From the NCBI RefSeq assembly GCF_900112595.1, contig NZ_FOMI01000004.1, positions 1 to 64,000 of the forward strand: a stretch of 64,000 bases of DNA. Direction: 5' to 3'. Positions 2,624-59,290 of this stretch are shown here, one piece after another. Each line of letters starts with the position of its first letter. Position 1 is the first letter of the stretch. Under the pieces are notes generated by a model that was given only the letters and a program-made list of their open reading frames with translations, was not told the origin of the DNA and did not search any database. Position numbers and translations under genes: made by a program. The stretch is from Algibacter pectinivorans (GTDB lineage: Bacteria > Bacteroidota > Bacteroidia > Flavobacteriales > Flavobacteriaceae).

Positions 2624-2759
2624 TACGTGTTTGTGTTATGGTTAGTTGTGTTGGCGAGAACTAAGTTAAAGAAATAAACCGAGCCATTAGGGAAAACTAT
2701 AGGGTTTTACACGCGAATAGAGGACTAGCAATCAGATATAAATGTTGTTACCGGAAGTA
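2624..2759. repeat. Cassette-like intergenic repeat, copy A
   Basis: Starts ACGTGTTTGTGTTATGGTTA and ends near ATGTTGTTACCGG. Its first ~60 bases resemble 53519-53580. Similar AACGT...TTGTTGCCAAC boundary sequences flank the next two small genes. No coding potential was seen. Confidence 0.55.
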
Positions 2760-3314
2760 TTAATCGCAATAAGTTTTAATTTTAATTTCTTTATCTATTA
2801 ATTTTATCATTTTTTTAATTAAAGATTTATCATCTTCAGAAGTTTCTGCACCAAAGATAACTTCCTTAATTTCTATATTTACATAATCTTGTTTTTCTGT
2901 AATTATGCGATATTCTTCTTCGTAACTCCACTCTTCAAGTTTATTTAAAAATACTGATTTTAATTCATTAAACTTTTGTGGAAATATATTGAAACTTTTA
3001 AGACCATTATATGTAACTTTTTCGATGTTGTATTTAGATTTGTCTATTTCAAATCCTATTGCAATTCCTCTATGTCCATTCGCATAATGTGACCACATTA
3101 AATGACTCTTGTAATTACCAGAAAAGGAACAAACACTTATATGACTCTCCTTTCTTGGATTCAATTTATATCTTTTTTCACTAAAAACATTTGAAAAAAA
3201 TTGTCCTTCAAAATTGTCATTTAATTTTCTAAAACTTGCAACATATAATCTTTGATTGAAAAAAATATCGATGATATATTTATAATCTTTCAAATCTCGA
3301 AATTTGTAGTACAT
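2760..3314 (-). CDS. DUF2971 family protein
   Basis: 184 residues with the DUF2971 signature in order: YYKFR start, SFRKLNDNFEGQ, VCSFSGNYKSHLMWSHYANGHRG, IAIGFEID, EEWSYEEEYRI and VIFGAETS. It is probably cytosolic; the family's biochemical role is not established, although members recur in accessory and defence-rich regions. It stands alone between two cassette-like repeats and has an AT-rich composition, consistent with a mobile small-gene cassette. Confidence 0.8.
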   Translation of the reverse strand: MYYKFRDLKDYKYIIDIFFNQRLYVASFRKLNDNFEGQFFSNVFSEKRYKLNPRKESHISVCSFSGNYKSHLMWSHYANGHRGIAIGFEIDKSKYNIEKVTYNGLKSFNIFPQKFNELKSVFLNKLEEWSYEEEYRIITEKQDYVNIEIKEVIFGAETSEDDKSLIKKMIKLIDKEIKIKTYCD

Positions 3315-3319
3315 AGTTT

Positions 3320-3475
3320 CTCAAATATTTTTGGTAACGTTTACGTATATGGAAAGTTGCGTGTTTGTGTGCGAGGATTTTCCGAAGGAAAATCAGATGC
3401 AAGCAAACAAAGCAACTAACATTGGTTAAGGTAAAACTAGCAATTTTTTATATACTTTGTTGCCAACAGTATTTT
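3320..3475. repeat. Cassette-like intergenic repeat, copy B, with terminal inverted repeats
   Basis: TTGGTAACGTTTACGTATA at the left end is an imperfect inverse of TATATACTTTGTTGCCAA at the right end. Inside is a perfect 8-bp hairpin, GATTTTCC-GAA-GGAAAATC. It separates the DUF2971 gene from the lipoprotein gene. A related boundary with GTTGGCAACTCGTTATATAG follows the lipoprotein gene at about 3951, with its own hairpin GTTTCAT...ATGAAAC. Confidence 0.6.
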
Positions 3476-3939
3476 TATTCTTTTACCGTAACATATAAAT
3501 TTGTCGGAACGTGTATTTCTTCATTTTCTTTATTGTTCATTTTAAAAACTGCTACTAATTTAATATTGTGCTCTCCTGCTTTTTCTGGAATGAAGCTATA
3601 CATGAATTCATTATCCGTAAGATTTTCGTAAACCAACTTATCAGGTTTTCCATCGCTGGTAGTCGTATAAACATTATAAGTCAGTAATTTTTCAGGATAA
3701 TTAAAAAGGAATTTCACTTCACTTTTTTCATTTACAATAAATTCAGGTTTAGCAGTCAGTCCGACAATGTTTGAGCTTAAAACCTTATAATAGTCCGATT
3801 TAGAAATCGAATCGGTTAGTTTTTTATTTTGAGTTTCGAGTTCAGTAATCCGATTATTTAATTCCGATATTTTCTTTTCATTACACGAAAAAAAGAAGGT
3901 CAGAAGTATTAAAATTAATCCGAAGTTAGTTTTTTTCAT
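3475..3939 (-). CDS. Small coiled-coil lipoprotein, unknown function
   Basis: 154 residues. A signal peptide ends in FFFSC, giving a lipidated Cys at about 19. A short coiled coil (ISELNNRITELETQNKKL) follows, then a ~100-residue beta-rich domain with EFIVNEKSEVKF and EFMYSFIPEKAGEHNIKLVAVF, resembling gliding-motility GldM-type Ig-like folds. Expected at the cell envelope. Flanked by cassette-like repeats on both sides with no operon partner. Function not recognised. Confidence 0.7.
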   Translation of the reverse strand: MKKTNFGLILILLTFFFSCNEKKISELNNRITELETQNKKLTDSISKSDYYKVLSSNIVGLTAKPEFIVNEKSEVKFLFNYPEKLLTYNVYTTTSDGKPDKLVYENLTDNEFMYSFIPEKAGEHNIKLVAVFKMNNKENEEIHVPTNLYVTVKE

Positions 3940-49724: not shown

Positions 49725-49787
49725 AACAACATTTTTTACGTTATATAAACTTCATTAGCATAATTGTTGATGAAGTTTTTTTGTATT

Positions 49788-52295
49788 ATGAATATAAGAT
49801 TAATTATTGCCCTATTCTACCTCGGATTATCTTCTGCTTTTGCACAAACTAAAGTTAGTGGTTTTGTGTACGATGAATTTAATGAACCTGTTTCCTTTGC
49901 AAATATTGTGTTTAAAGGCTCTACCGAAGGTACCATTACTAACGAAAACGGAAAATTCTATTTGGAGTCTGATGACTCTTGGGATGGTTTAGTCATTTCC
50001 TTTATTGGATACGAAACTTTAAATGTGCCTTTAGAAAAAAAGGTGAATTACAATTTAAAGTTTACGCTTAAAGAAGAAACTGCAGAATTAAATGCGGTGC
50101 TTATTGTGTCTGGAAAACAATCTAAAAAAAATAATCCAGCCATAGATATCCTAAAAAAAATATGGGAGCATAAACGAAGCAATGGTTTAAAACAATTTAA
50201 ACAATACGAATACGATAAATATGAAAAAGTAGAATTCGATTTAAACACCATAGATAGTGCGCTTATTAAAAGTAAACTGTTTAAAGGTATGGAGTTTGTT
50301 TTTAATGAGGTGGATACCTCTAACGTTACAGGAAAAACCTATTTGCCTATTTTTATAAACGAAGCCGTTTCAAAGGTATATGGCGACAATGTTATTAATA
50401 AAACCAAAGAAGATTTATTAGGAAATAAAAATTCGGGATTTAGCGATAACCAAATTATTATCGATTTTATAGACGATTTGTATTCCGATTTTAGTGTGTA
50501 CGATAATTACATGAAATTTTTCGATAAGAGTTTTGTGAGTCCGTTGTCTACAACAGGAGTAAATACTTATAATTATGTTTTGGCCGATAGTTCGTTTATA
50601 GATAATAAATGGTGTTATAATATTATTTACTATCCAAGACGAAAAAACGAACTAACTTTTAAAGGCGATTTTTGGGTGGCAGATACTACCTATGCTATTA
50701 AAGAAATTAATTTACAAGCCTCTAAAAGTGCCAATATAAACTGGATTAAAGAAATTTATATAGAACAAGAGTTCGAGGTATTAAGCGATTCGCTTTTCTT
50801 GGTAACAAGAGATTATATGCTTTCGGATTTTGCTTTTAATAAAAAGGAAAAGTCTCGTGGTGTTTACGGCAAGCGTACTACACTATACAATAATTATAAG
50901 TTTGATATTGAAAAGGATAAAAAATTCTACGATGCCGAAGTTTATAATTTTGATAAGGATATTTATAATAGAGATGATGAATTTTGGAGCGAGAACCGGT
51001 TAGAAGATTTAAATAAAGACGAGAAAGGTGTTTACAAAATGTTAGACACCTTAAAAACCGTTAAAAAGTTTAAACGCCTTTATAATTTAGGAAGTATTTT
51101 GGCTTCGGGTTATATTGAGTTTAATACATTGCCTTTAGATTATGGGCCCGTATTTTCAACCTTTGGGTATAACGAAGTTGAAGGTATTCGATTAAGAACA
51201 GGAGGGCGAACCTATTTTGGACCTAACGATTTATGGCGATTGGAAGGCTTTTTGGCTTACGGATTCGACGATGATAAATTCAAGTATGGTATTTCGGGTA
51301 AATGGCTAATTGATAAAAAAAGCCGACTTATTATCTCTGGCGGGAATAGGCGAGATATCGAGCAAATAGGTGCAAGTTTAACTACCAGTACCGATGTGTT
51401 AGGTAGAAGTTTAGCATCATCATCTGTAATAGGAACTAGCACAAACGATAAGCTTACCAATATTAATTTAACCAGTTTAGCCGTTGAAGCCGAACCATGG
51501 CGTAATGTTATATTTCGATTAGGCGGTAATTACAGAACCCTAGAATCGGCATCGCCAACCTTTAGTTTAGATTATAATACGCCAACGGGCATAGCTTCAG
51601 AAATTAAACAGTTTGAATCTAATTTATCGGTGTCCTATTTTCCAGGACGTAAAATGACTGGTTTTGGTGTGGAACGCAGAGTGGCTAACGATTATTATTC
51701 ACGTTTATTTGCACAAATAACACGAGGCGATAAAAGTTTGTTTAATAGCGATTTCGATTATACTAAAGTGCAGTTCTCATATACCCAACCTTGGCAAATG
51801 GGTGGTTTTGGAAGGTTAAATACCACCTTTGAAGCCGGCAAAACCTTTGGCGAAGTACCACTTGGTTTGCTAAGTGTTATTCCTGGAAACCAATCTTATT
51901 TTTCAATTTATAACACATTTTCGCAACTTGATTTTTATGAGTTTGTGTCCGATACTTATGCCTCTTTTCATTTCGAGCATAATTTTAATGGACGCTTATT
52001 TTCTAGAATACCGTTTTTACGCAAGTTGAATCTGCGAGAAATTGTAAGTGTACGTGGCGTTATGGGAAGTATAACAGACGAAAATGTTGCTTTAAGTAAT
52101 GTGCCTAGTAACCCAAACAATATTGAGTTGGTGGCACCATCAAACGAGCCGTATTATGAATACAGTCTAGGAGTAGGTAATATTTTTAAAGTGCTTAGAA
52201 TAGACTTTAATTTTAGAGGTAATTACAAAGATAATGCACTTTACCCCGAAGCCAGAAAATTTGGGGTTACCGGTAGCTTTGGGTTTTATTTTTAG
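49788..52295 (+). CDS. DUF5686 outer-membrane protein with carboxypeptidase-regulatory-like domain
   Basis: 835 residues. Signal peptide ending SSAFAQ, then a CarboxypepD_reg-like beta domain (TKVSGFVYDEFNEPVSFANIVFKGSTEGTITNENGKF, FIGYETL), as in TonB-dependent proteins. The rest (from ~120) is DUF5686, ending in repeated amphipathic strands (RLRTGGRTYF, FGVTGSFGFYF at the very end) typical of an outer-membrane barrel. Role unknown. ATGs at 49770 and 49788 are both possible; the latter gives a standard signal peptide. Confidence 0.87.
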   Translation: MNIRLIIALFYLGLSSAFAQTKVSGFVYDEFNEPVSFANIVFKGSTEGTITNENGKFYLESDDSWDGLVISFIGYETLNVPLEKKVNYNLKFTLKEETAELNAVLIVSGKQSKKNNPAIDILKKIWEHKRSNGLKQFKQYEYDKYEKVEFDLNTIDSALIKSKLFKGMEFVFNEVDTSNVTGKTYLPIFINEAVSKVYGDNVINKTKEDLLGNKNSGFSDNQIIIDFIDDLYSDFSVYDNYMKFFDKSFVSPLSTTGVNTYNYVLADSSFIDNKWCYNIIYYPRRKNELTFKGDFWVADTTYAIKEINLQASKSANINWIKEIYIEQEFEVLSDSLFLVTRDYMLSDFAFNKKEKSRGVYGKRTTLYNNYKFDIEKDKKFYDAEVYNFDKDIYNRDDEFWSENRLEDLNKDEKGVYKMLDTLKTVKKFKRLYNLGSILASGYIEFNTLPLDYGPVFSTFGYNEVEGIRLRTGGRTYFGPNDLWRLEGFLAYGFDDDKFKYGISGKWLIDKKSRLIISGGNRRDIEQIGASLTTSTDVLGRSLASSSVIGTSTNDKLTNINLTSLAVEAEPWRNVIFRLGGNYRTLESASPTFSLDYNTPTGIASEIKQFESNLSVSYFPGRKMTGFGVERRVANDYYSRLFAQITRGDKSLFNSDFDYTKVQFSYTQPWQMGGFGRLNTTFEAGKTFGEVPLGLLSVIPGNQSYFSIYNTFSQLDFYEFVSDTYASFHFEHNFNGRLFSRIPFLRKLNLREIVSVRGVMGSITDENVALSNVPSNPNNIELVAPSNEPYYEYSLGVGNIFKVLRIDFNFRGNYKDNALYPEARKFGVTGSFGFYF

Positions 52296-52357
52296 TCACT
52301 ACACTCATACATAATATTAGAACCTTAGGCGGTAGTGTATATTATCTGGTTATTGGT

Positions 52358-52900
52358 TTAAGTGCCCGAGGTTACATTAAAAGTTATTTCGTGTTCACCA
52401 CTTTTAGTAATGTATTTTACAGTAATCTTTTCGTACTTAAGGTCAATAATTTCTTGACGATTAGAGCTAGCGTCTACTTGATGCTTGCTAATTAAAACAT
52501 TTTTAAGGGTAATTACTAAATAAGGATTCTGCGATCCTGTTTCGGGTTTAATCAAGCTAATGGTAGTTTCTGCAAAGAATTTGCCTTGTAAGTTTGCTAA
52601 CATTAAATAAGGTGTGGCTGCATCAATTTTTTTTACAAGCGAAATTGGAGATACAGTAGCTCGAGCTCTGCTTCTTCCACTACCTATTTGTGCAGATTTT
52701 AATTGTTCAGATAAAGAAGCTAATCCGTAAATTTCAATTTCTCTGGCATAAGCTTTTGATTGTGATTCTCCATTTATGTCTGGAATTTTTACAAAACCAA
52801 TTACGGTATTTGCAGTCATTGGATTTTCTTGTGTGCTTTGAGCATTTAACGTTGCCGAAAACATAACTAAACCGATAAATAATATTAGTGCTTGTTTCAT
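52358..52900 (-). CDS. Secreted Hcp-like (T6SS tube-protein fold) protein
   Basis: 180 residues with a Sec signal ending in TLNAQ. The mature part has the Hcp pattern: GFVKIPDINGESQSKAYAREIEIYG, a basic loop (SGRSRARATVSPISLVKKIDAATPYLMLANLQGKFF), then ISLIKPETG, LVITLKNVLISKHQVDASS and IDLKYEKITVKYIT. Hcp proteins of type VI systems lack a cleaved signal and form the tube; this one appears exported on its own and no other T6SS gene is nearby. Role unknown. Confidence 0.72.
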   Translation of the reverse strand: MKQALILFIGLVMFSATLNAQSTQENPMTANTVIGFVKIPDINGESQSKAYAREIEIYGLASLSEQLKSAQIGSGRSRARATVSPISLVKKIDAATPYLMLANLQGKFFAETTISLIKPETGSQNPYLVITLKNVLISKHQVDASSNRQEIIDLKYEKITVKYITKSGEHEITFNVTSGT

Positions 52901-53053
52901 AATAAATTGATTTGCTTAAAGTTAGGTAGTTTTTTAAGAATTTCAAATCAATTATTACTTTAAAATATTAGAGCATAAAATGGATGAGTTATACTAGTTT
53001 TTAATGCATTTGTTTTTTCGATATGCCTAGGATTTAATGTACAAGAAGTTGTG

Positions 53054-53491
53054 TTATTGGCGCGAACGTAGTTTTAGTTCAGATTTTCGCATAGGCATAA
53101 CATCTATAGTCTCGAATAACTTTTCGCAATTAAGTAAATGGGCTTGCCTTAATTTTATACCACCATCCAAACCAATTAATACGACTTCCAAAGAGGCGTT
53201 AATAGATTTATATTTTTTATAGGTTTTGGATGAAGTTTGCCACGCTTTGTCCGCTAAGCCTTTTGTGTAATTTTGTTTTTTTATTTGATATACAATTAGT
53301 TTACGATCGGTAAGTCCGTTTTCGTGTGCCTGTAATTCTTTTATTTGATTCTGAAACGCAGAAGTATCAGCACCATCTGAAAGTACCAATAAAACTCTGT
53401 TTTCCCATTGATGTGATGCTATAATTTGAGACATGCCTTTATTTGCGCTAATAATAGAAATTACTAAAAAAAGGATTTTAAATACCTTCAT
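53054..53491 (-). CDS. DUF4174 domain secreted protein
   Basis: 145 residues, signal peptide ending GMSQ. HQWENRVLLVLSDGADTSAFQNQIKEL, LTDRKLIVYQI and LEVVLIGLDGGIKLRQAHLLNCEKLFETIDVMPMRKSEL match DUF4174, a thioredoxin-like fold without the CxxC pair. Function unknown. Monocistronic and next to a cassette-like repeat. Confidence 0.82.
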   Translation of the reverse strand: MKVFKILFLVISIISANKGMSQIIASHQWENRVLLVLSDGADTSAFQNQIKELQAHENGLTDRKLIVYQIKKQNYTKGLADKAWQTSSKTYKKYKSINASLEVVLIGLDGGIKLRQAHLLNCEKLFETIDVMPMRKSELKLRSRQ

Positions 53492-53518
53492 TTTTCACGG
53501 GTTTGGGGAGGTTCGTTT

Positions 53519-53580
53519 AACGTATTTGTGTATGGTTAGTTGCTTGGTTAAGCATGAAAGTTGGCAAATAAAAACCAAAT
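53519..53580. repeat. Cassette-like intergenic repeat, copy at the GHKL-nuclease locus
   Basis: AACGTATTTGTGTATGGTTA, then GTTGCTTGG and AGTTGGCAAATAAAAACC, resembles 2624-2685. It marks the left side of the GHKL-ATPase gene. No matching right-hand copy was seen after 55640. Confidence 0.5.
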
Positions 53581-53765
53581 AGAATACTCTTAAAGTTTTC
53601 CTAGAAAAAAGAGATAGGGAATAGAAGATGGACTTTGTACGTGCGCGTTTTTTTTATTTCGTATAAATTGAATTCGTTTAAGGTGTAAGTTGATCAAAAA
53701 ATGTTTTACATTTAATGATTAATTTTAATTTATTGATTAACCATTTAATGCATTAGCAGGTAATT

Positions 53766-55640
53766 ATGGATGTGAATATTTCCAGAGCAGCAGATCTTTT
53801 TTTTCCGAATCCTTCATTAGAGCTGGTTTATTTCGAGGCAATAGCGAACGCAATTGATGCTGGGGCTACTAGAGTAGACGTACAAATAAAGGTTAAGAAT
53901 CTGAAGGATGTTAATGCTTTTTCAGTTGAAATTAAGGATAATGGAGAGGGATTCAAAGATGATAATTTTAATAAATTTAAAGAACTTCTTAAAACAGAGG
54001 AAAAAGACCATAAAGGAGTGGGTAGGCTGGTATTTCTGAAATATTTTAGAACAGTTGATATAGAAAGTTATTTTGATGATAAAAAAAGAACTTTCAAATT
54101 TGACCGTTCATTTGATGGAGAGTCTCTTATAGAAAAGCATGATGAAAAAAAATCGGGAACTATCTTAAAATTATCAGGTTACAGGAAAGATAAAATTAAA
54201 GCATATAACTATTTAAGACCTCTAGCTTTAAAGAGGGTAATATTACTACATTTTTTTCCGTTATTTTACCAAAAGAAACTAGCTAAGGAAGAACTTTTGA
54301 TAACTATTTCGCTTGAGACAACTGAGCCTAATTCGGATTACGAATTTGCTTCAGATTACCAAGAAATTAGACTTGAAGATTTGCCTACTCTTGAAAAGAG
54401 TTCTTTTCATGACGAAACTATTTCCTTGGTGGACGAATTTCATTTATATTATTCAATCCAGAAAAAGGAACAGATAGCTGAAGAAAGCATGAGCATTATA
54501 GCTGTTTGTGTTGATAATAGGACAGTAGAAATGAAAATGCCTGGTGGTGAGACTTTGCCAGATGGTTATGAGCTTATTTTTCTTTTGATTTCAGATTATC
54601 TCACTGGAAAGGTAGACACCTCGCGTCAAGAACTTGATTTGCCAGATGCAACTATTAAACAGTTAAAAAGAGTGTTTAAAAAACATGTGAGTGCATTACT
54701 AAAAGAAAGTATTCCTGAAATTATAGAGAAAAACAGAGAACTTAAAAATTCTCTTCAGAATACTTACCCTCATTTACATGGTTATTTCAAAGATGAATCT
54801 ATAGGAATTGCGGATAGATCTGTTACTCTTGAGGCAGCTCAGATGCGTTTTTTTCAAGACCAAAAAAAATTGTTGGAAGCTACTCATTTGAATGATGAAC
54901 AATATGATAAGGCTTTGGAAGTTTCTTCTAGGCTTTTAATGGAATATATCCTTTACCGTGAGTTTTCATTAAAGCGTTTGAAAGAAGCTACTGACAAGGG
55001 AAATGAAGATGATATACATGATGTTATCATTCCTAAAAGAACTTATGACCATAATGATGGAGATATAGATACCTACTTTAAGAATAATGTATGGATATTT
55101 GATGATAAATTTATGACTTATTCCTCTGTGTTGAGCGAGCGCAGAATGGATGAGTTGCTGAAGGAGTTGGCGGGAGAAGATGATGAAGTTGATTCTAATG
55201 GTACGCGACCAGATATAGCAATAATTTTTTCAGATAATCCTGAAAAAGTTGAAAAGGTTGATGTTGTAATTATCGAGCTTAAGCAAGAAGGAATTAAATT
55301 AGCTAAGCAAGAGGAAGTAGTGAGTCAATTAAAACAGCGAGCTAGGATTCTTAATGATAAGTACACAGACAAAATTCAGAGAGTGTGGTATTATGGAGTG
55401 GCTGAAATTGATGTGGAGTTTGAAAGGTCATTGCTTGAAGATAATTATGTTCCTTTATATTCGAAGGGGAAAATGCTTTATGGTGAGGAGTTTATCATTC
55501 CGGATATGAGCGATAGGTTTAGTAGAATCCCAATAAAATTATTTGTTCTTAATTATGACGCGCTTATTAGCGATGCAGAAGCGCGAAATTCTTCTTTTAT
55601 GCAATTATTAAAGAAAAGTATTGCTGGTGAAACACGATAA
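53766..55640 (+). CDS. GHKL ATPase fused to PD-(D/E)xK-like nuclease domain
   Basis: 624 residues, soluble. The N-terminal Bergerat ATP-binding fold has E24-x3-N28-x2-D31 (YFEAIANAIDAGA), D58-N-G-E-G62 and the G84-V-G86 lid (HKGVGRLVFLKYF), as in Hsp90/MutL/MORC proteins. A transducer-like region with VDTSRQELDLPD follows near 270-310, then a helical part. The C-terminus (~450-560) has RPD483-x20-E504-L-K506 and a later Gln521, fitting a PD-(D/E)xK nuclease such as the Shedu type. A single-gene unit next to an accessory repeat; a nucleic-acid defence role is plausible but unproven. Confidence 0.8.
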   Translation: MDVNISRAADLFFPNPSLELVYFEAIANAIDAGATRVDVQIKVKNLKDVNAFSVEIKDNGEGFKDDNFNKFKELLKTEEKDHKGVGRLVFLKYFRTVDIESYFDDKKRTFKFDRSFDGESLIEKHDEKKSGTILKLSGYRKDKIKAYNYLRPLALKRVILLHFFPLFYQKKLAKEELLITISLETTEPNSDYEFASDYQEIRLEDLPTLEKSSFHDETISLVDEFHLYYSIQKKEQIAEESMSIIAVCVDNRTVEMKMPGGETLPDGYELIFLLISDYLTGKVDTSRQELDLPDATIKQLKRVFKKHVSALLKESIPEIIEKNRELKNSLQNTYPHLHGYFKDESIGIADRSVTLEAAQMRFFQDQKKLLEATHLNDEQYDKALEVSSRLLMEYILYREFSLKRLKEATDKGNEDDIHDVIIPKRTYDHNDGDIDTYFKNNVWIFDDKFMTYSSVLSERRMDELLKELAGEDDEVDSNGTRPDIAIIFSDNPEKVEKVDVVIIELKQEGIKLAKQEEVVSQLKQRARILNDKYTDKIQRVWYYGVAEIDVEFERSLLEDNYVPLYSKGKMLYGEEFIIPDMSDRFSRIPIKLFVLNYDALISDAEARNSSFMQLLKKSIAGETR

Positions 55641-55705
55641 ATTTTAGTTAGCCTTATTCGCTTTTTTATTTTTGTTATTCTAATCCAGTTGAATTTCAAC
55701 AAAAA

Positions 55706-55732
55706 AAAGACCGCCTTAATAAAGCGGTCTTT
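55706..55732 (-). terminator. Terminator of metK
   Basis: AAAGACCGC...GCGGTCTTT, 9-bp stem, with an A run on the plus strand that reads as a T tract for metK. It may also stop the convergent GHKL transcript. Confidence 0.88.
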
Positions 55733-55758
55733 GTTGATTATATATTAAGCTTTAAGTT

Positions 55759-57012
55759 TTACAACCCAAAAGCAGTTTTTACTTTTTCAACATAATCTAG
55801 TTTTTCCCAAGTAAATAGCTCAACGTCTAGGGTTATGTTTTCACCATTAGGTTGCGAGAACGATTTTGTAATCGTTTCGTTTTTACGCCCCATGTGTCCG
55901 TAAGCAGCAGTTTCGCTGTACATTGGTGAACGTAGTTTTAAACGTTCTTCAATAGCAAATGGTCTCATATCGAAAATTTCAGATACTTTTTCGGCAATTT
56001 CACCATCGGTTAAATTAAATGGGCACGTTCCGTAGGTATCTACAAAAATACCCATAGGCTCAACCACACCAATAGCGTAACTTACTTGTACTAAAATTTC
56101 GTCTGCAACACCAGCCGCAACTAAGTTTTTAGCAATATGTCTTGTAGCGTAAGCAGCACTTCTATCTACCTTGCTAGGGTCTTTTCCAGAAAAAGCACCA
56201 CCACCGTGGGCACCTTTACCGCCGTAGGTATCAACAATAATTTTACGTCCTGTTAAACCTGTATCGCCATGTGGGCCACCAATTACAAATTTTCCTGTTG
56301 GGTTAATATGATATGTAATATCGCTATTAAATAATTTTTGGATAGCTTCAGGAAGTTTAGCAACAACTCTTGGTATTAAAATTTCAACAATGTCTTTTCT
56401 AATTTTAGCAAGCATAGCTTCATCTTCGTCAAAATCGTCATGCTGCGTAGATACTACAATGGCATCAATACGTTGTGGTACGTTATCGTCACTATACTCT
56501 ATGGTTACTTGACTTTTAGAATCTGGTCTTAAATATGTAATGTCTTTTTCTTCACGACGTAATTCGGCAAGTTCTAGTAAAATTCTGTGCGACAAATCTA
56601 AAGCCAAAGGCATAAAATTTTCGGTTTCGTTGGTGGCGTAACCAAACATCATACCTTGGTCGCCAGCACCTTGTTCTTCTTTACTACCGCGATCGACACC
56701 TTGATTAATTTCTTGAGACTGCTCGTGAATAGCAGATAAAACACCACAAGAATTTCCATCAAACATGTATTCGCCTTTGGTGTAACCAATTTTATTTATA
56801 GTATCTCTGGCTATTTTTTGTACATCTAAATAGGTGGTCGATTTTACTTCGCCGGCAAGTATAACCTGTCCTGTTGTTACTAGGGTTTCACAAGCCACTT
56901 TCGATTCTTTATCAAAAGCTAAAAAATTATCTATTAATGCATCACTAATTTGATCAGCTACTTTGTCTGGGTGTCCTTCAGATACACTTTCTGAAGTGAA
57001 TAAATATGCCAT
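55759..57012 (-). CDS. metK: S-adenosylmethionine synthetase
   Basis: 417 residues. [81 protein letters not shown] and [27 protein letters not shown] are the ATP and methionine site motifs. Makes SAM from methionine and ATP in the cytosol. Monocistronic. A ~120-base structured leader precedes it. Confidence 0.98.
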
Positions 57013-57029
57013 AATTATTATTTTACGGT

Positions 57030-57120
57030 AAGATTTGACGAGAACGTCGAAGGAAGTTTACACTGCCTTTAGCATTTTTGTTTACATAACATGTAAAGAG
57101 GTTGCAATCAGTCAAATCTT
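57030..57120 (-). ncRNA. Structured metK leader, candidate SAM-responsive element
   Basis: On the minus strand the leader opens AAGATTTGAC (57120-57111) and closes GTCAAATCTT (57039-57030), a perfect 10-bp helix. Inside: GATTGCAACC, a perfect 7-bp hairpin TTTACAT-GTT-ATGTAAA (57097-57081), then TGCTAA. GCAACC-hairpin-TGCTAA recalls the P3 region of S-box (SAM-I) RNAs, but the P2/kink-turn part is missing. The closing helix ends 17 bases before the ATG. No ligand is proven. Confidence 0.42.
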
Positions 57121-57139
57121 TCCTCTATTATTATTTCGG

Positions 57140-57147
57140 CAAAAGTA
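57140..57147 (-). promoter_or_regulatory. metK promoter -7 box
   Basis: Minus strand TACTTTTG matches TAnnTTTG. Transcription would begin near 57133, about 12 bases before the leader helix, so the whole structure would be transcribed. Confidence 0.55.
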
Positions 57148-57335
57148 AAAAAATAAAAGAATATGCGGGTCTGTTTTTGTTTTTTTTGGCAATAAGTTGG
57201 CAGTTAATGTTTAAATACAAATATTTGCATGAACCTGATGAAAAACTGTTTTTTAACTACTTGTCTTGTTTATATCCTAGTGATTATTTCATGAGGCAAC
57301 GGAAAGGTATTTTAAATCAAACCTAAATTTAATAT

Positions 57336-57362
57336 CCTTCCTAAATTGGGAAGGTTTTTTTA
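57336..57362 (+). terminator. Intrinsic terminator without an assigned gene
   Basis: CCTTCC-TAAATTG-GGAAGG followed by eight or more T on the plus strand. Upstream is only a weak frame antisense to the metK leader, so what it stops is unclear. It may shield ilvD from read-through. Confidence 0.65.
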
Positions 57363-57607
57363 TGAAGTTTTTTTTGGTTTTGAACATCATAAAAATTACG
57401 GTCTAAATAACTGTAAATCAAATATTTGAGTTAGATTTTATAGCCGTGGATTTAACCTGAAAAAGCAAAGGTTAACTACTATAAGAAGCTAATAAATTAA
57501 TTTCGACAAGTTGTTTTGGTTAAATTGAGGAATTTTTAATAAACACCTTAATTAATTAAGAATATAAAAATAAAATAAGCTAAATACTAAAGTTGTTTGC
57601 AACAAAT
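57363..57607. other. Upstream region of the ilv operon
   Basis: About 245 AT-rich bases. No branched-chain leader peptide or attenuator was recognised. A weak TAACCT...AGGTTA inverted repeat lies near 57452-57475. Confidence 0.45.
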
Positions 57608-59290
57608 ATGAAAGAACTTAATAAACATAGTAAAAGACTAACACAAGACGAATCTCAACCAGCTTCTCAAGCCATGCTATACGCAGTAGGTTTAACAGAT
57701 GAAGACATGCACAAGGCTCAAGTAGGTATTGCAAGTACAGGGTATGATGGAAATCCATGTAATATGCATCTAAATAATTTAGCTGCCGAGGTTAAAATTG
57801 AGTGTAAAATAGCCAATATGGTTGGTTTAGGGTTTAATACTATTGGTGTTAGTGATGGTATTTCTATGGGAACTTCGGGTATGAATTACTCTTTAGCATC
57901 TCGCGATATTATTGCAGATTCTATCGAAACAGTAATGAATGCCCAAAGTTATGATGCTTTAGTATCTGTAGTAGGATGCGATAAAAATATGCCAGGAGCT
58001 GTAATCGCTATGTTGCGTTTAAACCGTCCGTCTATTATGATGTATGGAGGTACAATCGCTTCTGGAAAATATAAAGGAAGAAAATTAAACATTGTTTCGG
58101 CTTTCGAAGCTTTAGGGCAAAAAGTAGCTGGTGAAATTGATGAAGAAGAGTATAGAGAAATTATAAAGAGTGCTATTCCAGGAGCAGGAGCTTGTGGTGG
58201 TATGTATACAGCAAATACAATGGCTTCGGCAATTGAATGTATGGGGTTTGCATTACCATATAACTCGTCTATTCCAGCCGAAAACCCTAATAAATTATCT
58301 GAAAGCGAAAGAACAGCAAGAGCTATTAAAAACCTTTTAGAATTAGATTTAAAACCTTTAGATATTATCTCTAAAAAATCTATTGAAAATGCCATTGCAT
58401 TGGTAAATGCTTTAGGAGGTTCTACCAATGCGGTATTACACTTTTTAGCTATTGCACATGCTGCAGATATCGATTTTACTTTAGAAGATTTTCAGCGTGT
58501 AAGCGACAGAACACCGTTAATAGCAGATTTAAAACCATCTGGTAAATACCTTATGGAAGATGTTCATGGTGTTGGAGGAACCCCAGCAGTAATGAAATAT
58601 TTATTAGATAATGGTTATTTACATGGTGATTGTTTAACAGTAACAGGAAAAACTTTAGCTGAAAATTTAGCAGATGTTGAACCACTTACTTTTGAAAACG
58701 ATCAAGATGTTATTTTTCCAAAGGATAAAGCATTAAAATCTTCAGGTAACTTACAAATCCTTTATGGAAACTTAGCGACTGAAGGTGCGGTAGCAAAAAT
58801 ATCAGGTAACGAAGGTTTATTATTTGAAGGTAAAGCAGTGGTTTACGATGGTGAGCAAGCGGCAAATACAGGTATTTCTAACGGCGAAGTAGAAAAAGGA
58901 GATGTTGTTGTTATTCGTTATGTTGGTCCAAAAGGAGGTCCAGGAATGCCAGAAATGTTAAAACCAACATCATTAATTATGGGGGCTGGTTTAGGGAAAT
59001 CTGTAGCCTTAATTACCGATGGCCGTTTTTCTGGAGGTACGCACGGTTTTGTTGTAGGACACATAACGCCAGAAGCCCAAAATGGTGGAACTATTGGGTT
59101 AATAAAAACAGGAGATAAAATTAGAATTAGTGCCGAGGATAACTCAATTAACGTTTTACTTTCTGATGAAGAAATAGCAGAAAGAAAAGCGCAATGGGTA
59201 CAACCTGCATTAAAACACAATAAAGGAATATTATACAAATACGCAAAAACGGTAGCATCGGCTTCAAAGGGCTGTGTAACGGATTTGTAA
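57608..59290 (+). CDS. ilvD: Dihydroxy-acid dehydratase
   Basis: 560 residues. Fe-S Cys ligands in [17 protein letters not shown] and [31 protein letters not shown] and [21 protein letters not shown] follow. Dehydrates dihydroxy acids to the keto acids of valine and isoleucine. The ATG at 57608 ([10 protein letters not shown]) was chosen over an upstream TTG. First gene of ilvD-ilvB-ilvN-ilvC. Confidence 0.97.

Follow-up and report, generated by a model that had tools for sequence, protein, structure and literature searches.

What might a single gene be doing for its bacterium if that gene stands apart from defence genes and joins, in one polypeptide, a GHKL ATPase to a nuclease? The question is raised by a locus of Algibacter pectinivorans (Flavobacteriaceae) found within positions 1 to 64,000 of contig NZ_FOMI01000004.1, forward strand (assembly GCF_900112595.1), a stretch of 64,000 nucleotides to which I refer here as the window. 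The gene occupies positions 53766..55640 (+ strand), starts with an ATG at 53766, and encodes 624 amino acids (aa), as based on an open reading frame (ORF) list, Pfam, and an alignment of 23 sequences. By analogy with relatives, its product is quite probably a stand-alone, ATP-gated antiviral DNA nuclease of the paraMORC3 or VcSduA kind. What is observed in support is an intact GHKL ATP-binding domain, a middle of long helices, conserved PD-(D/E)xK residues, purifying selection, and a patchy, mobile distribution, and several relatives lie within restriction-modification (R-M) operons or next to genes of other defence systems. Among possible functions defence has the best support, since a remote relative of like layout protects against phage and needs both of its active sites to do so. 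That the gene is a defence candidate, as a preliminary description of this DNA had proposed, holds up by way of that same relative (PMC12137116).

The protein begins with a GHKL/Bergerat ATPase domain (~aa 1-139; 53766..54182, +; border as I read it), which carries E24, N28, D58xG60xG62 and G84xG86. Pfam's HATPase_c_3 matches at aa 18-126 (E-value 5.9e-9, 36.5 bits versus a curated cut-off of 25), HATPase_c likewise matches above its cut-off, and HATPase_c_3 is found in 13 of 13 sequences of a set which includes the window protein (set A1; a second set, A2, holds 18 sequences). There follows a transducer-like region (~aa 140-290; 54183..54635, +), S5-like by analogy with the ATPase modules of Hsp90, MutL, GyrB and MORC, as judged using AlphaFold2 and Foldseek and again with borders of my own reading. 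Next is a long-helix region (~aa 291-411; 54636..54998, +), with helices at 294-315, 318-333, 351-370 and 377-411 in the AlphaFold2 model, and this, by analogy, is possibly the counterpart of the clamp-like middle domain of VcSduA. The PD-(D/E)xK nuclease domain, delimited using the 23-sequence alignment and a C-terminal model, makes up aa 412-624 (54999..55637, +) and contains E414, H418, NNVW 440-443, DD 446-447, D483, E504-x-K506, Q521 and RN 607-608. Counting from the ATG at 53766, all of the residues that had been named in the preliminary description are found where it placed them, i.e., E24, N28, D31, DNGEG 58-62, GVG 84-86, an RPD with D483, x20, E504-L-K506, and Q521.

The 23-sequence alignment consists of the window protein and 22 relatives, and is without L008 and L010, which are broken or incomplete, without the fragments L017 and L018, without L011 (unused), and without L052 (same gene region as L047). 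Invariant throughout are E24, N28, D58, G60, G62, G84 and G86 in the ATPase part along with E414, H418, N441, W443, D446, D483, E504, K506 and R607 in the nuclease part, with Q521 and N608 kept in 22 of the 23. D31, which had been named earlier among the ATPase residues, is present in only 8 of 23. As the catalytic residues never vary across these 23 sequences, the nuclease motif is not a chance pattern. That a GHKL ATPase and a PD-(D/E)xK nuclease are joined in one polypeptide is confirmed by the HATPase_c_3 match, by the constancy of E414, D483, E504 and K506, and by the predicted order of strands.

Those strands come from AlphaFold2 models, one of the full protein using 13 sequences (predicted local distance difference test, pLDDT, of 77.5; predicted template modelling score, pTM, of 0.60) and one of the nuclease only using 18 sequences (pLDDT 78.7, pTM 0.77). 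The full model consists of an N-terminal ATPase, a mixed middle, helices over 294-411, and the nuclease. D483 is predicted to lie directly ahead of strand 484-488, E504 within strand 498-505 with K506 just past it, and Q521 in helix 512-532. The core of PD-(D/E)xK enzymes runs strand-strand-helix in just this way, and in the model D483 and E504/K506 belong to adjacent strands, arranged as a single active site would require, such that D483, E504 and K506 would cluster in space. A scattering of these three residues, which the preliminary description had named as counter-evidence, is not indicated by this arrangement. Among the 50 Foldseek matches listed for the full model are GHKL ATPase-module proteins only (Hsp90, MutL, GyrB, SMCHD1, MORC2), these matches mostly spanning ~370-450 columns, i.e., past the ATPase, with query TM-scores of ~0.3. 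For the nuclease model, 29 of the 50 weak Foldseek rows listed are, as I read their names, PD-(D/E)xK enzymes (NucS, FokI, Avs3, Cap4, McrBC and HamA are among these), and no row of the 50 bears the name Shedu. A search of solved structures using a nuclease profile returned nothing significant; its best nuclease matches, EndoMS and NucS (E-values of 1.5-1.6), cover the strand with E-L-K along with the Gln helix after it, which is not evidence by itself.

The preliminary description recognized no named system with this layout. Two have been published, however, paraMORC3 in 2008 and VcSduA, or Shedu type I-D, in 2025, and the window protein is a divergent, added member. In Iyer, Abhiman and Aravind (2008, PMC2292703), paraMORC3 is described as GHKL plus S5 plus a C-terminal restriction-endonuclease fold having E-D-ExK, and as prevalent in Bacteroidetes and proteobacteria, sporadic, mobile, and in some cases stand-alone. 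The window protein shares these GHKL motifs and the C-terminal, restriction-fold E-D-ExK, with an S5-type domain only by analogy; E414-D483-E504-x-K506 fits that pattern, with E414 presumably the first E. In a comparison with the family description, no feature was found that excludes paraMORC3.

VcSduA, of V. cholerae, is described in PMC12137116 as a GHKL ATPase with a C-terminal PD-(D/E)xK domain (DUF4263). As reported there, it is anti-phage both in its native host and when placed in E. coli, an activity lost with E27A and with K557A; its growth curves, as its authors read them, fit a direct restriction that the host survives; and homologues are present in ~1.2% of the genomes examined, with like proteins formerly annotated as paraMORC3. 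Proteins of 672 aa on Vibrio fluvialis and Salinivibrio plasmids have their ATPase Glu at 27 and their nuclease Lys at 556, and, because this residue numbering is nearly identical (E27; K556 versus the published K557), these two Vibrionaceae proteins look like VcSduA orthologues. Comparison using hhalign of the window clade (7 sequences) with the Vibrio-type clade (12 sequences) gives E-values of 1.2e-26 for the N-terminal, 1.2e-6 for the middle, and 2.8e-14 for the C-terminal part, versus 0.66 for a negative control. At the level of sequence profiles, the window clade is to be seen as homologous to VcSduA over its full length, i.e., via the two presumed orthologues and 10 others. Like VcSduA, then, the window protein has an N-terminal GHKL ATPase, a middle domain, and a C-terminal PD-(D/E)xK domain within one gene, with catalytic Glu and Lys aligned. 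Unlike VcSduA, it is of 624 rather than 672 aa (the latter that of the presumed orthologues), is ~20% identical, lacks a match to SduA_C, and belongs to a separate clade. Indeed, in a tree of 25 sequences the Vibrio-type clade is found apart from the window branch (100/99), with several long branches leaving the inner order unsure. What this means is that the defence layout, for which the published activity found is of one Vibrio protein only, extends to marine Flavobacteriia in the form of a divergent clade.

Is the nuclease, more specifically, a Shedu domain? Of the two profile searches suggested in the preliminary description, that with HATPase_c_3 reached its cut-off while that with PF14082 (SduA_C/DUF4263) did not succeed: there is no match at E<=0.1 in 13 of 13 A1 sequences or in 5 of 5 plasmid relatives, with L084-L088, L191 and L192 unscanned. 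PADLOC's Shedu models also do not match the window-clade nuclease. In local pairwise hhalign, with two other PD-(D/E)xK families, HSDR_N and Mrr_cat, as controls, the window clade gives E-values of 0.065 with SduA_C, 1.4e-5 with HSDR_N, and 0.013 with Mrr_cat. In the same order, the values are 3.3e-4, 9.4e-5 and 0.3 for the Campylobacterota sequences together with L015 and L016; 4.9e-7, 4.8e-5 and 0.33 for the Vibrio-type clade; and 5.1e-7, 9.4e-6 and 0.56 for all 25 sequences. The 18-sequence set gives 4.6e-6 with SduA_C and a slightly better 3.2e-6 with HSDR_N. Excluded were one Shedu sequence (L063), as its locus ends at a contig edge, and two control sequences (L166, L186), which contain stops. 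A first hhalign value for a Shedu-specific nuclease in the window clade, 9.2e-8, was probably that of a forced global alignment and has been superseded, and the Shedu-specific claim is dropped because local alignment with controls favours HSDR_N for this clade. The window-clade nuclease is, judging by its profiles, a PD-(D/E)xK domain which is tied to Shedu solely via intermediates and the published classification. With classical SduA (PF14082) it shares a PD-(D/E)xK core, along with distant profile similarity via the Vibrio-type clade (4.9e-7 over 141 columns). It differs from classical SduA in lacking a PF14082 match, and its protein differs in that a GHKL ATPase replaces SduA's N-terminal clamp, which senses DNA ends (PMC12904381).

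No named nuclease family is assigned to the window protein, i.e., none above cut-off using Pfam and none at all using PADLOC or NCBIfam. PADLOC returns a single weak match, in the ATPase region. Weak nuclease matches are seen in A1 relatives, with VRR_NUC in 2 of 13 (best 1.7e-4), PDDEXK_9 in 2 of 13 (0.0079) and NucS_C in 1 of 13 (0.018), and with HSDR_N in the plasmid relative L050 (0.025). The BbrUII/HgiDII restriction enzyme family (NCBIfam NF050001) gives a weak match to the ATPase motif (21 bits), seen in 3 of 18 A2 sequences, which means that an ATPase motif of like kind already occurs in a named family of restriction enzymes; the window protein is nevertheless far under the 550-bit cut-off of that model, with the best stretch being aa 22-70 only. 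This clade goes unnamed by the models scanned from Pfam, NCBIfam and PADLOC, and for that reason defence surveys may miss it.

How might such a protein work? Binding of ATP would dimerize the N-terminal domains, as in other GHKL proteins, with the dimer then closing round or along DNA in the manner of MutL, Hsp90 or MORC modules. That closure would switch on, or position, the paired C-terminal nuclease domains, and these in turn would cut invading DNA. Conceivable triggers are an end of DNA, its topology, a protein of the phage, or absent methylation.

The likeness to MutL suggests as well a different function, that is, DNA repair rather than defence by a MutL-like protein. The best NCBIfam and PDB sequence matches are indeed to the ATPase domains of MutL and PMS2, and Iyer et al. 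speculated about functions other than R-M for stand-alone paraMORC3 (PMC2292703). All NCBIfam matches are sub-threshold, however: the six MutL models listed match the ATPase region only, the best of them, TIGR00585, at 24 versus 180 bits and confined to the region of the ATPase motifs, such that the curated cut-off for MutL membership is not reached. A gene for repair would also hardly be expected in just 1 of 10 genomes of the genus, nor would its relatives be expected within R-M operons or on plasmids, and I view this explanation as very unlikely.

That distribution is as follows. Within the genus, a full-length match is present in 1 of 10 genomes, namely its own, and in the remaining nine every match listed falls within model positions 1-170 (of 633); the preliminary description had held that it would speak against defence if all relatives kept their homologue at one and the same housekeeping locus, and this is not what is seen. 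Among 60 relatives one (G015, 51%) carries a close homologue, in addition to the genome itself. Across the order, with at most three candidates scored per genome, 6 of 395 genomes (own counted) have a match over most of the protein and 8 have any match at E<=0.001. Across the phylum, with at most four scored per genome, full-length matches are found, among 296 genomes, in the genome itself and in five more; 151 genomes have some match, the listed rows beyond the six full-length ones and two fragments of the nuclease region (G601, G570) falling in the ATPase half. Further relatives are found in a Dokdonia metagenome-assembled genome (L003; 91% aa identity), in a member of the Prevotellaceae (L004; 37%), at six Campylobacterota loci (24-27%), and in 10 plasmid records (22-25%). 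A contig from a viral collection (L011) has a 37% identical relative near its end, and one genome, G666, has three GHKL-nuclease loci (L123, L124 and one on contig C52), of which one is split into two frames.

The gene itself is under purifying selection, patchy and mobile. A stretch of 2175 bp (53522..55696) is present in the window where its congener G004 has 82 bp instead, i.e., an empty site, as seen using blastn of 51000-58000. A module shared with the Dokdonia genome at 84% DNA identity (53647..55674, +) consists of the gene along with ~120 bp upstream and 34 bp downstream, and in Dokdonia it sits between unrelated genes, at another site than in the window (blastn). The preliminary description gave the gene's span as 53519-55640, the end of which matches that of the ORF, but the start is 247 bases ahead of the ATG, about where the inserted stretch begins. 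Between the window and Dokdonia genes the nonsynonymous rate (dN) is 0.046 and the synonymous rate (dS) 1.03, for a dN/dS of ~0.04, with dN lowest in the nuclease (0.027) and highest in the ATPase part (0.078). Might the gene instead be a neutral passenger, that is, mobile cargo without current function in its host? It does adjoin a decayed attC-like repeat, and it occupies a spot which elsewhere is filled by other small genes. An intact frame, a dN/dS this low, and retained catalytic residues nonetheless make that highly improbable. This dN/dS compares two species and so does not speak to a recent loss of function in this strain.

A rival which bears more directly upon the antiviral nuclease reading is that the protein is the restriction half of an R-M-like pair, i.e., an ATP-dependent endonuclease which is restrained by methylation of host DNA, with the methyltransferase encoded elsewhere in the genome. 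The Campylobacterota relatives are suggestive in this regard. All four of the complete nuclease genes there have a gene for a D12 N6-adenine methyltransferase at their stop codon, directly adjoining it in L005 and overlapping it in L006, L007 and L009; these gene pairs are at L005:12026, L006:2175, L007:11941 and L009:11980. The D12 family is confirmed by Pfam for L005 and L009 (7.7e-55, 1.2e-45) and recognized for L006 and L007 by way of a shared start peptide, MNYIGSK. Of the broken genes, L010 shows only the start of the D12 gene and then ends, and L008 is succeeded by a stretch which is, by eye, methyltransferase-like but differs from the D12 gene. The Campylobacterota GHKL-nuclease and D12 methyltransferase are possibly, then, a two-gene, R-M-like system. 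The Prevotellaceae relative has an N6_N4 methyltransferase with one gene in between; L129 is immediately preceded by the methyltransferase and helicase genes of a type III R-M system; and in L191 and L192 a type I R-M operon ends with the GHKL-nuclease gene. Iyer et al. tie paraMORCs generally to R-M operons (PMC2292703). On the other hand, as I read their ORFs, there is no adjoining methyltransferase in the window, in the Dokdonia locus, or in L046, and none is found among the window ORFs of 50-60 kb, the rest of the genome not having been searched. VcSduA, moreover, protects E. coli when made alone (PMC12137116), and where paraMORC3 stands alone, Iyer et al. for the most part found the species to be without R-M genes (PMC2292703). 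An R-M-like pair is, on balance, possible though doubtful for the window gene.

A further scenario is an evolutionary one. The window clade and its sisters would be a branch apart from VcSduA, founded by an ATP-gated restriction enzyme that was translationally coupled to a D12 methyltransferase, with Flavobacteriia then having lost that partner, become stand-alone, and acquired a new means of discriminating self from non-self. This scenario is speculative and I consider it rather unlikely; if true, then the branch would link GHKL restriction enzymes with stand-alone, Shedu-like immunity. Because sister genes are coupled to one for a D12 methyltransferase, there is a direct way to ask whether ATP-gated GHKL nucleases read methylation or instead some other property of invading DNA.

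Plasmid relatives are found among a wider range of defence genes, with contexts that include SIR2 together with XamI R-M (L048), AbiE (L049), RnlAB (L051), abortive infection (Abi) genes (L047, L052), and an N-6 methylase ~6 kb off (L050). Each of the eight plasmid regions chosen has, no more than 6 kb off, a gene annotated as R-M, methylase, Abi, SIR2 or toxin-antitoxin, these regions being my pick among the records listed and including two pairs of near copies. Pfam, applied to 10 neighbours also of my choosing, matched 7 to methyltransferase, restriction or helicase families and 3 to nothing. On one Vibrio fluvialis plasmid (IncC by typing), the GHKL-nuclease gene directly follows an annotated Shedu gene (L191:4616-8010), such that two nucleases of related kind are found side by side.

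Various results weigh against a stand-alone antiviral nuclease. A survey of neighbourhoods had been suggested earlier. Individual relatives are near R-M, Abi or SIR2 genes, such contexts being individual observations; a PADLOC tally of 100 near versus 126 farther ORFs (17 loci) gave 151 versus 150 families, no clear difference. That tally counted families rather than genes, with 25 listed per set, and used simple longest-ORF calls, with the farther set taken from the same regions. The gene's immediate neighbours in the window are non-defence genes. The window protein is only 19.7-20.0% identical to the Vibrionaceae plasmid proteins (569 columns), and its tblastn alignments to plasmid relatives end at aa 461-488, short of the ExK motif. 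Of five plasmid relatives, one (L049) is unmatched by Pfam's ATPase models and another (L048) is under cut-off. Lastly, every match of the window protein at E<=1, whether from Pfam, PADLOC or NCBIfam, has its best part outside aa 412-624, and Foldseek with the nuclease model gave no match at E<=0.001, its top-ranked row being a non-nuclease.

To the left of the gene, at 53512..53645 with borders set by eye, is a decayed, attC-like (integron cassette) repeat, with its left half recognizable and its right half lost. A repeat beside the gene, recurring within the window, had been noted already, and it is real: TATGGNNAGTTG is present three times versus 0.12 expected, and 0 of 100 shuffles reach three. 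Two more attC-like copies are at window positions 2635-2770 and 3345-3480. A 19-base attC-like pattern, allowing at most one mismatch, has 20 matches in the genome versus 2 for a reversed control, two of the 20 looking unlike the rest and 11 being on one strand of contig C6 (0.7-27.6 kb). There, attC-like repeats of ~120 bp, in 11 copies, part small genes in an array (C6:755-27581; L193, L194). The ends of attC sites are variable between copies and complementary within one, and the ends of these ~120-bp copies vary and tend, by eye, to complementarity within a copy. An integrase-like ORF of 368 aa is found toward the beginning of contig C10, with a further repeat copy not far off; the two pieces of this ORF score 112 and 65.5 bits versus an integron integrase cut-off of 265. 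It is just a candidate integrase, both because it is below that cut-off and because 14 of 14 control genomes likewise match the model below cut-off. Array and ORF together are a candidate chromosomal integron. Capture of the gene as an integron cassette was considered as well and is not claimed, as the repeat precedes the gene, has lost its right half, and lies outside the module in common with Dokdonia, which starts past it. Being half decayed and upstream, the window repeat is no proof of a cassette.

The flanks, described earlier as housekeeping genes between which the gene stands alone, are so on one side, where metK, S-adenosylmethionine synthetase, is found (55759..57012, -; identity read from sequence; match in 10 of 10 genomes searched), but on the other side are a DUF4174 gene (53054..53491, -; Pfam PF13778, 2.8e-25) and an Hcp-like gene. 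In the congener G004 the DUF4174 gene and metK directly adjoin, 82 bp aside. In the same spot G009 holds a 339-aa ORF and G001 holds ORFs of 110 and 124 aa, with no Pfam match at E<=0.01 for these inserted ORFs. Across the genus the variable spot corresponds to window positions 52295-55759, i.e., between an 843-aa gene (49764-52295) and metK, and is short in G002 and G007. Also near the gene, in Dokdonia, an ORF at L003:12862-13509 (-) has weak similarity to a HEPN family (pEK499_p136, 4.2e-4, under cut-off). The Hcp-like gene is of the type VI secretion system Hcp family (PF05638, 6.9e-27; window 52358-52900, -), has by eye a start resembling a signal peptide, and is absent from this spot in G001 and G009.

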